DNA of 64,000 nucleotides, taken from contig JALHMI010000010.1 of assembly GCA_022844125.1 (NCBI GenBank), positions 62,001-126,000 of the forward strand, written 5' to 3'. Below are positions 36,464-51,408 of this stretch, piece after piece; within the stretch, counting starts at the first letter, position 1; each line of letters opens with the position of its first letter. Origin of the DNA: Pirellulales bacterium (lineage in GTDB: Bacteria; Planctomycetota; Planctomycetia; Pirellulales; PALSA-1355). Made by a program: the position numbers and the translations under genes. The notes under the pieces were generated by a model that saw only the letters and a program-made list of their open reading frames with translations, did not search any database and was not told the DNA's origin.

Positions 36464-36510
36464 AGTGGACAGGGGCGGGATCGAACCGCCGACACACGGA
36501 TTTTCAGTCC
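36464..36510. repeat. attL: left 47-bp direct repeat (tRNA-Phe 3' fragment)
   Basis: This is identical to 51345-51391. It begins AGTGGACAGGGGCGG and ends GATTTTCAGTCC. It contains the acceptor 3' strand, T-arm and part of the anticodon arm of tRNA-Phe but no 5' half, so it is not a functional tRNA. Confidence 0.93.
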
Positions 36511-36614
36511 CCCAGAAGCGTTAGAATGCGTTTTGAACAGGTTGCGAATAGTTGAAATCGCCGGGCTTCGTGAGCGGCAGTCGCTGCGATGTGACACGGG
36601 GATTTTTGGCAGAT

Positions 36615-36633
36615 AGTAACAAGTCGGGTAACA
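36615..36633. repeat. Candidate integrase arm site (left)
   Basis: AGTAACAA-N4-GGTAACA is matched in the same orientation at 51256-51274, near the other end of the element. Internal direct repeats near both att cores are typical of tyrosine-integrase arm sites. Confidence 0.4.
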
Positions 36634-36635
36634 AA

Positions 36636-37148
36636 ATGAATAGCTACTTCAGTGAGTTCTCCAAAAACTACAATACTTGGTTCCAGAGTAAGTCTCGGGC
36701 CGATCTCGAAGCGACATGGCGATCCCTCGAATTGATGATCCATGATCGGGTTGAAAGGGAGGGCTTCAGCTATTTCTGGGTTGTGCGGCTCTTTCAGCAA
36801 AAGGCCATGAAGCGATTGCATTTGGAGGTCCGGAAGGCGGATATTGAGTACCGGCGATCTCCGCATAGGCGCCGAATGCGCATCCGTCGGCGCGAACCGT
36901 CCCAGGTAACGTTCGGCGAGGATGTATTCCCGGTTTCGTGGAACCAAGCCACGATATTGAGGCTGCTCCGCGACGCGGACGGCGATTGGCTGTCCGGTGA
37001 AGCGGACCTGAAACCTGCAATCTCTGGCGGTCGCCCAGATCGCGAGATTGCCACGCTTCCCGAACAGCTTAAGTCGCTCGTCGAATCAGGTGGCCCCAAG
37101 GGCTATCGCATCGCGAGAAAAGCCCTGGCGGCATCCCGCCAAAAGTAA
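36636..37148 (+). CDS. Hypothetical protein next to attL
   Basis: About 170 residues from MNSYFSEFSKNYNTWFQ. The frame opens earlier at a TTG (36552). The protein is basic and helical (RRSPHRRRMRIRRREPS) with a possible C-terminal winged-helix-like segment (SWNQATILRLLRDADGDWLS). It is the only gene between attL and the early operon, a position that often holds regulators, but I see no named domain. No ribosome-binding site stands out. Confidence 0.55.
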   Translation: MNSYFSEFSKNYNTWFQSKSRADLEATWRSLELMIHDRVEREGFSYFWVVRLFQQKAMKRLHLEVRKADIEYRRSPHRRRMRIRRREPSQVTFGEDVFPVSWNQATILRLLRDADGDWLSGEADLKPAISGGRPDREIATLPEQLKSLVESGGPKGYRIARKALAASRQK

Positions 37149-37254
37149 GCCACCGTCACGCCAGATTTGAGCCGTCGTCCTGCCAGACAGGGCGTTTTAG
37201 ACTTCGTTCAGACGTTGCAAGAACAACCAGCAACGCGGAGCGGAGTCTTTTTTC

Positions 37255-37476
37255 ATGGCCACACTGCTAACGGTTAGCGACCTGCGAAAGCTGCTCGGGC
37301 TGCCCCGGCATCGGATCGCTTACGCCATTGACCGCTTCGGACCCGAGCCGGCCGGCCGGATGGGAACTACACGGTTTTGGAACGAATCGGACCTTCCCAG
37401 CATCGTGGAGTCAGTTGACCGGGCCCACGCCAACGACCAGAAGTTCCGGCCGCACCGAAAGGCGGTGGCCCGATGA
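37255..37476 (+). CDS. Small MerR/excisionase-like HTH protein
   Basis: The 73-residue protein begins LLTVSDLRKLLGLPRHRIAY and continues with GTTRFWNESDLPSIVE, the usual form of a MerR-type or excisionase-like winged helix with a tryptophan in the wing. It opens the early operon and overlaps the nuclease gene by four bases. It could be the early activator or the excisionase; the second small HTH gene at 39910 is the alternative. Confidence 0.75.
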   Translation: MATLLTVSDLRKLLGLPRHRIAYAIDRFGPEPAGRMGTTRFWNESDLPSIVESVDRAHANDQKFRPHRKAVAR

Positions 37477-49242: not shown

Positions 49243-49260
49243 TAGCAAGCAATCTTGCTA
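49243..49260. repeat. Perfect 7-bp inverted repeat upstream of the leftward gene
   Basis: TAGCAAG-CAAT-CTTGCTA is a perfect hairpin or operator palindrome 32 bases before the start of the leftward gene. It has no T-run, so an operator is more likely than a terminator. Confidence 0.4.
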
Positions 49261-49343
49261 AGCAGCGAGCCGGCGGGTAGATTGGTGGGGTCAAAGCCTT
49301 AACCGGCACTATCAAAATGTCAAAATCTTCTATCAGAAAAAAG

Positions 49344-49456
49344 AGCCCCGCCGTCTGCGCTTGCGCGTACGCCAAGGGCGTGCTTCGGCATGCCTCAAGG
49401 CCCGCAAGGTGGTCTGATAGCCGCCTGACAGCGAGTGTAGACGGTGGGGCTTTTTG
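49344..49456 (+). ncRNA. Candidate structured RNA in the element
   Basis: A closing stem pairs 49344-49356 (AGCCCCGCCGTCT) with 49439-49451 (AGACGGTGGGGCT), 13 pairs including one G-U, and is followed by TTTTTG. Inside are an eight-pair hairpin with a UUCG loop (49376-49395, GGGCGTGC/GCATGCCT) and a six-pair hairpin AGGTGG/CCGCCT. No known family is recognised and no protein frame crosses it. It could be a small RNA, or the leader of the next gene at 49499. Confidence 0.5.
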
Positions 49457-49498
49457 TTGCGCTGTGTCTCTCTGGCCGCGCGCACGAAAGGACTCACC

Positions 49499-49954
49499 AT
49501 GGGCCGTTATTCTCGACGGAAGCCCGTCCCGCAGCTGATCTACCCCGAGCCGCTATTTGCTGTTTGCGGCCACGACCCGAAGACCGGCGAGGCTGTCATC
49601 CTCGATCGTCGCGCCCCGCAGCCCCGCGAGGACGCACAGTACTGCGCCGACTTACTGAATGCCTTTGCCACCAAAGATGGCAGGCATGCGTTTCTCTGTC
49701 CGATCAGCCAAATGGTGATCGACACCACGCCGCTCGACAGGGCGCCGGCCGTGGTCATGCTCGAACCGTCCGGCGAGATTGTAGAACGCGGCCAGTACGA
49801 AGACTGCATGGCGATGGCGGCGGAAGCCAACCGGCTGGATGACGCCAACCCGACCGGCCAGCGGGCCGTTGTGAGAGTGAATGGGCCGAAGCTAGATCTT
49901 GACGAAGTTCTCGCCAAAGGACGCTCCAAGGCGGCCGAGGCGTTGGGTTACTGA
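49499..49954 (+). CDS. Hypothetical protein before the integrase
   Basis: 151 residues from the ATG at 49499 with AAAGGA before it. The protein (MGRYSRRKPVPQLIYPEPLF) has two Cys in CGHDPKTGEA...YC and a beta-rich centre, ending with an alternating helix EVLAKGRSKAAEAL. No named family. It lies directly downstream of the structured RNA candidate, which may control it. Confidence 0.65.
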   Translation: MGRYSRRKPVPQLIYPEPLFAVCGHDPKTGEAVILDRRAPQPREDAQYCADLLNAFATKDGRHAFLCPISQMVIDTTPLDRAPAVVMLEPSGEIVERGQYEDCMAMAAEANRLDDANPTGQRAVVRVNGPKLDLDEVLAKGRSKAAEALGY

Positions 49955-50067
49955 AATCCCTGCTAGCCCCTGGCCCTGTCCCGCAAAGATGCCCGCGGGC
50001 AGGGCGGGGGTTAGGCAGTGCGTGTTGTGCAACCGGGCATCGAATCCTTTAGCAGGGAGAAACGAAG

Positions 50068-51408
50068 GTGGAAGATATCAAAGTCACGGTGGTTGAGTTC
50101 TCCGACCGCAAGTGCTTCCAGATGCAGTATCGCTGCCCGCTGACAGGCAAGAAGAAAACCAAGGCCACGGACGTCGAGCGTGACGGCAGCAAGAAGGCCC
50201 GCCGCGACGCCGAGCGAGCTGCAGGCGACTGGGAGAAGCAACTCCGCGAAGGCACCTACCAGGACGTGAGCAAGATCACCTGGTCGGACTTCCGGACCCG
50301 CTACGAGAACGAAGTGCTCACCAGCCTAGCCGAGAACACCGACGCCAAAGTGCAGGGCGTGTTCAACTCGATTGAGTCGATCCTGAGCCCGGCCCGACTG
50401 CGAGACCTGAATGCCGACCGCCTGAGCCACTTCCAGGCCAAGCTACGCGAGAACGGACTGGCCGAGTCAACCATTGCCTCCATGCTGGGCCACCTGCGGG
50501 CTGTGCTCAACTGGGCGGCCAAGATGGGCATGATCCCCAAGGCTCCGACGATCGAACGCCCCAAGCGTGCGAAGAGCTCGAAAATGATGAAGGGCCGGCC
50601 GATCACGCTCGAGGAATTCGAGCGGATGCTCGACAAGGTGGCCGACGTCGTCACGGCCGAGCTGGGCGAAGATGCCGAAGCAACGGACATTGCGACCCGC
50701 GACCAGGTGATTGCCGATTGGAAGTTCTACCTTAAAGGCCTCTGGGCCTCGGGCCTGCGGCTGGGCGAATCCCTGACTCTCGACTGGGAACGGCCGGACC
50801 GGTTGCGAGTCGACATGGACGGCAAGCGGCCCATGCTTCAGATCCCGGCCGAGCTCGAAAAAGGGAATCAAGACCGGCTGTTGGCCATGGCGCCGGAATT
50901 CGCCGTCCTGCTGCTGGGCGTGCCCGTCGAGGACCGCCACGGGCCAGTGTTCCAACTCCGCACCCGCCGCGGGCAGCGTCCATCGGAGTGGTGGGTCTCG
51001 CGAGTCGTGGCCAAGATCGGTGAAAAGGCCGGCGTGAAGGTCGACGAGAAGGTGAAGGACGGTAAGAAGGTGATCAAGTACGCCAGTGCCCACGACCTGC
51101 GGCGGAGCTTCGGCTCACGCTGGGCCCCGCGGGTCATGCCCCAAGTGCTGATGGAACTGATGCGTCACGAGTCGATCGAGACCACGCTCAAGTATTACGT
51201 CGGGCAGGATGCCCAACGGACTGCCGACGTGCTGTGGGCAGCCCATGAGAAGGCGAGTAACAAAAGTGGTAACACTGCCCCCGTTCAGGCCCAAACGCAA
51301 CAAGCCCCGTCGGCCGTAAGTGGTAACAGCGACGGGGCTTGCGAAGTGGACAGGGGCGGGATCGAACCGCCGACACACGGATTTTCAGTCCGTTGCTCTA
51401 CCAACTGA
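50068..51408 (+). CDS. Tyrosine-recombinase integrase
   Basis: 446 residues from a GTG with GGGAG upstream. A SAM-like N-terminal domain (ITWSDFRTRYENEVLTSLAE) is followed by the catalytic domain with Arg231 (SGLRLGESL), His342-Asp-Leu-Arg345 (HDLRRSF), His367 (LMRHESIETT) and Tyr376 (KYYVG). Position next to attR and target type fit a phage integrase that uses tRNA-Phe. The last 22 residues (EVDRGGIEPPTHGFSV then RCSTN) are encoded by the att core and tRNA itself. Confidence 0.95.
   Translation: MEDIKVTVVEFSDRKCFQMQYRCPLTGKKKTKATDVERDGSKKARRDAERAAGDWEKQLREGTYQDVSKITWSDFRTRYENEVLTSLAENTDAKVQGVFNSIESILSPARLRDLNADRLSHFQAKLRENGLAESTIASMLGHLRAVLNWAAKMGMIPKAPTIERPKRAKSSKMMKGRPITLEEFERMLDKVADVVTAELGEDAEATDIATRDQVIADWKFYLKGLWASGLRLGESLTLDWERPDRLRVDMDGKRPMLQIPAELEKGNQDRLLAMAPEFAVLLLGVPVEDRHGPVFQLRTRRGQRPSEWWVSRVVAKIGEKAGVKVDEKVKDGKKVIKYASAHDLRRSFGSRWAPRVMPQVLMELMRHESIETTLKYYVGQDAQRTADVLWAAHEKASNKSGNTAPVQAQTQQAPSAVSGNSDGACEVDRGGIEPPTHGFSVRCSTN
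51256..51274. repeat. Candidate integrase arm site (right)
   Basis: AGTAACAA-N4-GGTAACA, the same pattern and length as 36615-36633. A second copy of the shorter unit AAGTGGTAACA, present at 51264-51274, occurs at 51318-51328. The sites lie within the 3' part of the integrase gene. Confidence 0.4.
51345..51391. repeat. attR: right 47-bp direct repeat inside tRNA-Phe
   Basis: Identical to attL (36464-36510). It covers the 3' half of the intact tRNA-Phe gene, restoring it after integration. Confidence 0.93.

Follow-up and report, generated by a model that had tools for sequence, protein, structure and literature searches.

A tRNA-Phe element of a Pirellulales bacterium that carries terminase and tail genes without a recognisable head is probably a phage satellite

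We analysed a 64,000-nucleotide stretch of DNA from a Pirellulales bacterium (hereafter the window; positions 62001-126000 of contig C10, JALHMI010000010.1, in a genome of 6.44 Mb and 27 contigs, here G000) and found that its positions 36464-51391 form a 14.9-kb element integrated at a tRNA-Phe(GAA) gene. Judged from its sequence, this element is probably an integrated phage satellite, which would supply a terminase and tail parts of its own and borrow a head and a tail tube.

The element lies between perfect direct repeats of 47 bp spaced 14,881 bp apart, for which chance occurrence within 18 kb is negligible, and the right-hand copy is the 3' part of the intact tRNA gene. None of the 18 called genes contains an internal stop, and neither broken genes nor a loss of selection was found. 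The open reading frame (ORF) of the integrase reads through the right attachment (att) site, and a scripted joining of the two ends leaves it open with its last residues altered. Besides an integrase and att sites, the element has a replication gene of its own and an incomplete set of virion genes, as a satellite does. A preliminary description made from the letters had already pointed out the repeats, the integrase, a superfamily 3 (SF3) helicase, an ERCC4 nuclease, the motifs of the large terminase subunit TerL and a spike-like protein, and our searches confirm all of these (Table 1); the spike-like protein matches a PHROG family named 'virion structural protein' (expectation value, E, 2.3e-9) over 39 residues.

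The same description saw no head or tail family in the proteins of 360, 242, 330, 588 and 114 residues that follow TerL, and proposed either a new small phage with an unseen, divergent head or a terminase-bearing satellite using the capsid of a helper. Its premise holds in part: neither Pfam nor PHROGs gives these proteins a match worth naming, and the two libraries name no head protein in the element other than TerL, but the 330- and 588-residue proteins belong to the tail module of a phage family outside those libraries. The phage closest to the element is L109 (also L138; IMG/VR UViG_3300049586_000067, 35,448 bp). Read from the neighbourhoods of 20 matches to the 588-residue protein and from viral contigs, the gene order of the family is portal, protease-scaffold, decoration, capsid, adaptor, tube, chaperone, tape measure and the 588-residue family, which we call the hub from its gene position; tube, chaperone, tape measure and hub are putative roles suggested by that order. 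L109 carries them all. Its portal is recognised as Portal_Mu by Pfam (1.6e-36), its TerL as a PHROG terminase (1.9e-28) and its capsid protein by PHROG 1005, major head protein (1.6e-5), and in phage L084 PHROG 113 (1.9e-35) and PHROG 195 (2.9e-12) identify the portal and the adaptor, respectively. The hub had no match in GenBank phages, matched itself alone among 392 phylum genomes, and was found in 49 of 397 class genomes at E 0.1 (34 at 0.001, its own genome included). Scans of viral contigs with the single hub protein, the hub alignment A6, the 360-residue protein and the ERCC4 nuclease returned no relative.

Family profiles for portal, protease-scaffold, decoration, capsid, adaptor, tube and chaperone, built without L109, all match L109 (capsid 2e-126, portal 1e-153) and match none of the 105 ORFs of at least 50 residues at 36400-51500; a profile-profile comparison of the called genes likewise found no such head or tube part. 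The profiles for the KTSC-domain, 360-residue, spike, tape-measure and hub proteins contain the window proteins, and those self-matches are not used as evidence. Eight of the 18 ORFs of at least 150 residues at 40-48.9 kb are the genes discussed here, whereas the remaining ten overlap these in different frames and are taken as spurious. Sequence profiles thus found in the element no portal and major capsid protein of the kind that mark a complete tailed phage, and Pfam, PHROGs and the family profiles found none of the capsid, protease, portal and connectors that a capsid-forming phage-inducible chromosomal island (cf-PICI) has of its own. A TerL, a TerS-like gene product and tail-tip proteins, in a set few of whose members Pfam and PHROGs recognise, could also be expected of a complete small phage whose head has diverged beyond recognition, but we regard this reading as very improbable. 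The KTSC-domain gene and the five genes at 43274-48535 match a phage with separate portal and capsid genes (the match of the 242-residue protein being short), and in elements with a related TerL the PHROG library does recognise the portal (four of four) and the capsid (three of three where the gene was given).

The likeness to L109 extends over much of the structural stretch. The hub gene (46769-48535) corresponds to L109:9995-11761 with 64% identity over 585 columns, the KTSC-domain protein is 59% identical over 311 columns to an L109 protein lying between TerL and portal, and the spike is 57% identical to part of L109:12930-13544. The tape measure, of 330 residues against 320 in L109, is 32% identical over 281 columns (40% over the best 151), and the 360-residue protein matches, at 29% identity over 348 residues (phmmer E 8e-25), the product of a 381-residue L109 gene that directly precedes TerL and whose ORF overlaps the start of the TerL ORF. 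Tape-measure and hub genes overlap by 4 bases in the element and in L109 alike. Identity to the phage at codon positions 1/2/3 is 74/79/48% for the hub, 68/74/38% for the KTSC-domain gene and 66/69/42% for the spike; third-position identity so far below that at the second indicates selection on the protein. The tail proteins, the match of the 360-residue protein to a gene before TerL and the existence of a matching phage type had all been overlooked in the preliminary description.

The gene order nevertheless differs from that of L109: in the element the KTSC-domain gene precedes TerL and the spike gene precedes the tape measure. Since, in addition, its TerL has no match in L109, the element is not simply a deleted L109-like prophage. 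More broadly, an immobile deletion derivative of a prophage, with the genes for head and tube gone, would explain why several genes match one phage type, and would fit a genome without a matching helper and relatives in which no empty site was found at the loci inspected; we nonetheless think it unlikely in view of the perfect att repeats, the intact genes, the selection on hub, KTSC-domain and spike proteins, the gene order unlike that of the phage, the TerL with no match in it, and the recurrence of a similar reduced content in bounded elements of two other genera.

Two further proteins of the structural stretch may be linked to head assembly and packaging. Among 116 phage ORFs of at least 100 residues, the best match of the 242-residue protein is the protease-scaffold of L109, to whose C-terminus its last 50 residues are 40% identical. 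None of 2000 shuffles reached its score of 78 (the best shuffle gave 77 at full length, and 60 vs 78 for the last 60 residues), and a C-terminal scaffold profile placed it first of 553 window ORFs (E 0.038). The 360-residue protein is almost wholly helical in a single-sequence model with a predicted local distance difference test score (pLDDT) of 54. It found 25 of 397 genomes at E 0.1, the best outside match being 0.003, and four were examined. In genomes G746 and G588 the match is located within or close to an element of the same kind; the 225-residue relative in G746 matches the phage gene (5.7e-7), and the 220-residue relative in G588 is weak (E 5e-5) and itself has no match to the phage gene. 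Those in G606 and G741, which fall inside proteins that do not look phage-like, were dropped as chance. As for the hub, nine of the first 20 rows returned by the VIA tool align its residues about 1-160, all nine with tail-tip, baseplate, needle or tube-type proteins (Z 5.5-7.3). This is a hint that its N-terminal domain may resemble baseplate, Dit and tube proteins, although such fold matches may, by the tool's own caveat, reflect merely a common arrangement.

The terminase is of a different lineage from that of L109. TerL keeps three aligned nuclease Asp positions, and its ATPase motif reads NE, against DE in 18 of 20 aligned relatives (L050 and L051 also have NE). It had no match in the five virus records searched, L109 among them, and a single weak one in GenBank phages (Thermus phage Riverbug, 23.8%), and the TerL trees did not place it. 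Its relatives include two further islands of the same genome. The first, L033 (G000:C14:58001-78000, 6315-17702), lies at a tRNA-Leu between 61-bp repeats (11,327 bp) and encodes an ERCC4 nuclease 73% identical over 154 residues to that of the element, a primase-helicase, TerS, TerL and proteins of 295 and 259 residues, with no recognised capsid; the second, L032, has an invertase-type recombinase. In the proteins given from L032, L033 and L034, neither a portal nor a capsid was recognised by PHROGs. In IMG/VR the window TerL found 11 loci. In the three whose proteins were scanned, PHROGs recognised a portal (L160, L161, L164), a capsid (L160, L164) and a tape measure (L161, L164), the L161 capsid and the L160 tape measure not being among the scanned proteins; L200, in genome G744, adds a further portal and capsid. 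L160, L161 and L164 look like cf-PICI-like elements, and the window element itself resembles such a satellite backbone to which parts of an L109-type phage have been added.

Other TerL relatives were seen in passing. The locus L048 is judged satellite-like from its similar gene sizes and from capsid and portal matches in G333. The loci L036-L047 and L049 hold orphan TerL-like genes of about 500-610 residues that keep the ATPase and nuclease motifs, among neighbours that look like host genes and are common between genomes (L043/L046, L039/L045); they are possibly domesticated terminases.

Searching other planctomycete genomes, as the preliminary description had suggested, yielded two att-bounded elements with tape measure and hub. 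One, in G588, a genome assigned to the same order as the host (L104, the same place as L085), lies at a tRNA-Ala between 93-bp repeats (97%) that are 9,607 bp apart, and the other, in G744 (L083), at a tRNA-Leu between 60-bp repeats 16,310 bp apart. By the family profiles neither has a capsid, portal, adaptor or tube, and PHROGs, applied to ten unassigned proteins of the two, named only a replication initiator (2.8e-25, L104) besides a family of unknown function. In L104 a 215-residue protein matches the scaffold portion from phage L084 (1.6e-8) and from phage L105 (3.6e-6), and a chaperone and a homologue of the protease-scaffold are present in L083. The L104 hub is 69% identical to that of phage L105, and in the hub tree (where the L104 place was entered as row L085) the window groups with L109, and G588 with L105 and L084, both with support of 1.0. 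These two separate pairings imply at least two transfers of tail cassettes, in one direction or the other, between phages and satellites. The contig of L105 (JAJCYI010000199.1) is labelled as a Saprospiraceae metagenome-assembled genome, perhaps a binning error, and its phage hub is the nearest relative of that in the planctomycete element of G588. In L104 (stretches 5784-15483 and 15521-18754) the 9.6-kb element is directly followed by a second integrase-like gene, which suggests tandem elements at one tRNA-Ala site.

The capsid profile matches nine of the 20 fetched hub regions. The 11 without a match include two short contigs (L082, L094), two regions that retain a tube gene (L099, L100) and the two repeat-bounded places (L083, L085); no clear boundaries were found in L081, L093, L095, L096 and L098, L093 having a 24-bp repeat, like the end of a tRNA, 24,954 bp apart, and these are not counted as satellites. 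In G668:C355 an ERCC4 nuclease, tape measure, hub and integrase lie side by side, with no boundary repeats found. ERCC4 nucleases of the element's type occur in 21 of 337 class genomes; among the 11 loci fetched (L188-L198), five have an adjoining match to a D5-type helicase and five are on contigs of 13-17 kb.

If the element borrows its head, possible donors deserve consideration. The L109-type capsid profile (A8) has no match in G000, G744, G588 or G746, the last a weaker negative in 390 contigs, and matches G686 and G547, both contained in the profile, and G404, which is not. With profiles built from the capsid and portal found alongside the window TerL lineage (A13, A14), we located head-forming elements with TerS, TerL, capsid and portal in G588 (C85, L141), with gene sizes the same as in L160, and in G744 (L200), with a gene that looks by eye like a serine recombinase. 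Both of the other bounded tail-carrying elements, in which no TerL was found, thus have a head-forming element elsewhere in the genome; this allows the idea that two satellites possibly complete each other. In G000 no A13-type capsid was found, but a portal-like gene on contig C5 (2.6e-6) lies in a prophage (C5:317001-355000; L199, L201) with a portal (3.4e-57), protease, capsid and adaptor recognised by PHROGs, so that a resident head source of another family does exist.

The finding of head genes in the host genomes slightly lowered our confidence in the reading that we favour. A satellite that takes its head from another resident element, of the portal and capsid families accompanying the window TerL, and has only its tail cassette in common with L109, gains from the presence of phrog_12/2662 portals and phrog_10 capsids both beside that TerL lineage (L160, L164, L200) and in the C5 prophage, and from the head-forming elements in G588 and G744. 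It is set back by the matches of the KTSC-domain, TerS-position and scaffold-like proteins to head and packaging genes of L109 and by the lack, at E 0.01, of any match between an element protein and the C5 region, and we judge it improbable. With two TerS candidates (at 40171 and 43274), a TerL that is not of the L109 type and these other sources of heads, more than one packaging route is conceivable.

Under the reading that we favour, infection by an L109-type tailed phage would lead the element to excise and to replicate with its own helicase. It would take the capsid, portal, connector, tail tube and chaperone of the helper, and the scaffold-like 242-residue protein may bias capsid assembly. 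Packaging might be achieved by its own TerS and TerL, by the TerS-position protein acting on the helper TerL, or by both, and tape measure, hub and spike of the element would replace those of the helper in chimeric tails. Helper dependence, the chimeric tail, redirection through the scaffold, use of the terminase and mobilisation are all steps that we infer; the satellite proposed in the preliminary description is supported by the anatomy and by the related elements. Alternatively, tape measure and hub might mainly be decoys that spoil helper tails in defence and not parts of a virion of the satellite. Satellite defence is known to act on the assembly of tails (Rta; PMC12987554), and the element copies are close to those of the phage; the proteins are, however, full-length, tape measure and hub keep the 4-base overlap seen in L109, and packaging genes are present as well, which makes this a rather remote alternative.

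Several observations weigh against a helper-dependent satellite. The scaffold likeness is a short match of about 50 residues; TerL has Asn for the usual Asp in its ATPase motif and sits on a long branch, and it is unlike that of the candidate helper, so that its fit to the helper portal is conjectural. The fold check proposed earlier for the hub gave a poor model (pLDDT 57, predicted template modelling score 0.30), nothing in Foldseek at E 0.001 and VIA rows of Z 7.3 or less. No tail assembly chaperone was found in the element, while L083 and L081 have one. L109 is known from a virus record without an assigned host, and with no L109-type capsid gene in G000 there is no matching helper resident; the C5 prophage and the head-forming elements of G588 and G744 make another head donor possible. 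An empty site was not found when one flank gene was searched in 39 relatives (ten genomes matched, its own included), the other flank being kept in none of the three loci inspected out of ten. Excision, packaging and transfer of the element are presumed.

Among known satellites, P4 has a D5/SF3 helicase and integrates at a tRNA, as the window element does, which differs in its tail genes. Staphylococcus aureus pathogenicity islands (SaPIs) are not known to carry a TerL. A close parallel is offered by the phage-inducible chromosomal island-like elements (PLEs) of Vibrio cholerae, integrated satellites with tape-measure and baseplate-hub genes like those of their phage, a likeness that here consists of homology and gene order; L083 and L081 add a gene at the chaperone position and hence have the same trio. 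According to PMC12987554, PLE11 uses a tape measure and hub of its own to build tails that are chimeric with phage ICP1, PLEs are called the first satellite family to do so, in a description from 2026, and putative tmp genes are shown in a sampling of cf-PICIs. By comparison with PLE as described there, the window element has TerL, a TerS-like protein, spike and KTSC-domain protein and no chaperone, its candidate helper has a short tape measure, and the host belongs to another phylum. With cf-PICIs, which carry heads and borrow tails (PMC10690885), it shares an integrase, replication gene, TerS and TerL within 12-15 kb, and the related-TerL elements L160 and L164, with capsid and portal, look like cf-PICIs; the window element differs in having tail parts and no recognisable capsid, protease, portal or connector. 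For the 242-residue protein, the proposed parallel, by description, is CpmB of SaPIs and other PICIs, which has a C-terminal motif in common with the helper scaffold, its capsid-binding region (PMC5644958).

Somewhat more tentatively, and with slightly less than even confidence, we propose a planctomycete satellite family that inverts the cf-PICI plan. Its members would encode a terminase or TerS together with a scaffold-like protein, the tail ruler and the hub, in some cases also spike and chaperone, and no shell; each lineage would share its tail cassette with one phage lineage, and the virion would be chimeric in capsid assembly and tail tip. A literature search, beyond whose reach most subscription journals lie, gave no satellite report for planctomycetes among the matches listed.

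Table 1. Features of the element, in window coordinates
Feature	Position	Strand	Evidence or remark
attL, 47-bp repeat, partial tRNA-Phe	36464..36510	.	repeat search
198-residue ORF adjoining attL	36552..37148	+	start uncertain (TTG); no family match
73-residue small protein	37255..37476	+	helix-turn-helix-like by eye; no family match
ERCC4-family nuclease	37473..37967	+	ERCC4 1.8e-6
131-residue protein, no assigned role	37964..38359	+	
SF3/D5-type helicase	38230..39813	+	D5_N 9.6e-34; real start probably ATG 38356
TerS-like protein	40171..40881	+	position; 38% identity over 138 residues to pre-TerL gene of island L033
KTSC-domain protein, 307 residues	40875..41798	+	Pfam KTSC domain; phage L109 homologue
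Terminase large subunit TerL	41795..43243	+	PHROG 1.9e-22; Pfam TerL_ATPase 1e-6
360-residue TerS-position protein	43274..44356	+	homology to phage L109 pre-TerL gene
242-residue scaffold-like protein, without protease part	44417..45145	+	short C-terminal match
Spike/fibre-like protein, 150 residues	45196..45648	+	PHROG 'virion structural protein'; L109 homologue
Short tape-measure-position protein, 330 residues	45780..46772	+	position, L109 homology
Hub-position tail-tip protein, 588 residues	46769..48535	+	position, L109 homology
114-residue protein, no Pfam or PHROG match worth naming	48532..48876	+	
92-residue protein, no assigned role	48933..49211	-	
166-residue protein, no assigned role	49454..49954	+	
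Tyrosine integrase, C-terminus through attR	50068..51408	+	Pfam PF00589 3.8e-11; PHROG integrase 1e-33
attR, identical 47-bp repeat within tRNA-Phe	51345..51391	.	repeat search
tRNA-Phe(GAA), integration site, intact	51346..51419	-	

Elsewhere in the window, 57259-60438 holds 23S and 5S rRNA genes, and no 16S gene was found in the window; unlinked rRNA genes are common in planctomycetes.

In summary, an element that combines TerL with tail genes but has no capsid is not necessarily an incomplete or a new phage. Planctomycete elements that bring their own tape measure and hub, and that can be matched with identifiable phages, would show that the remodelling of tails is more widespread among satellites. 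They would also provide pairs of satellite and helper that can be tested, in a phylum from which our searches gave no satellite report.

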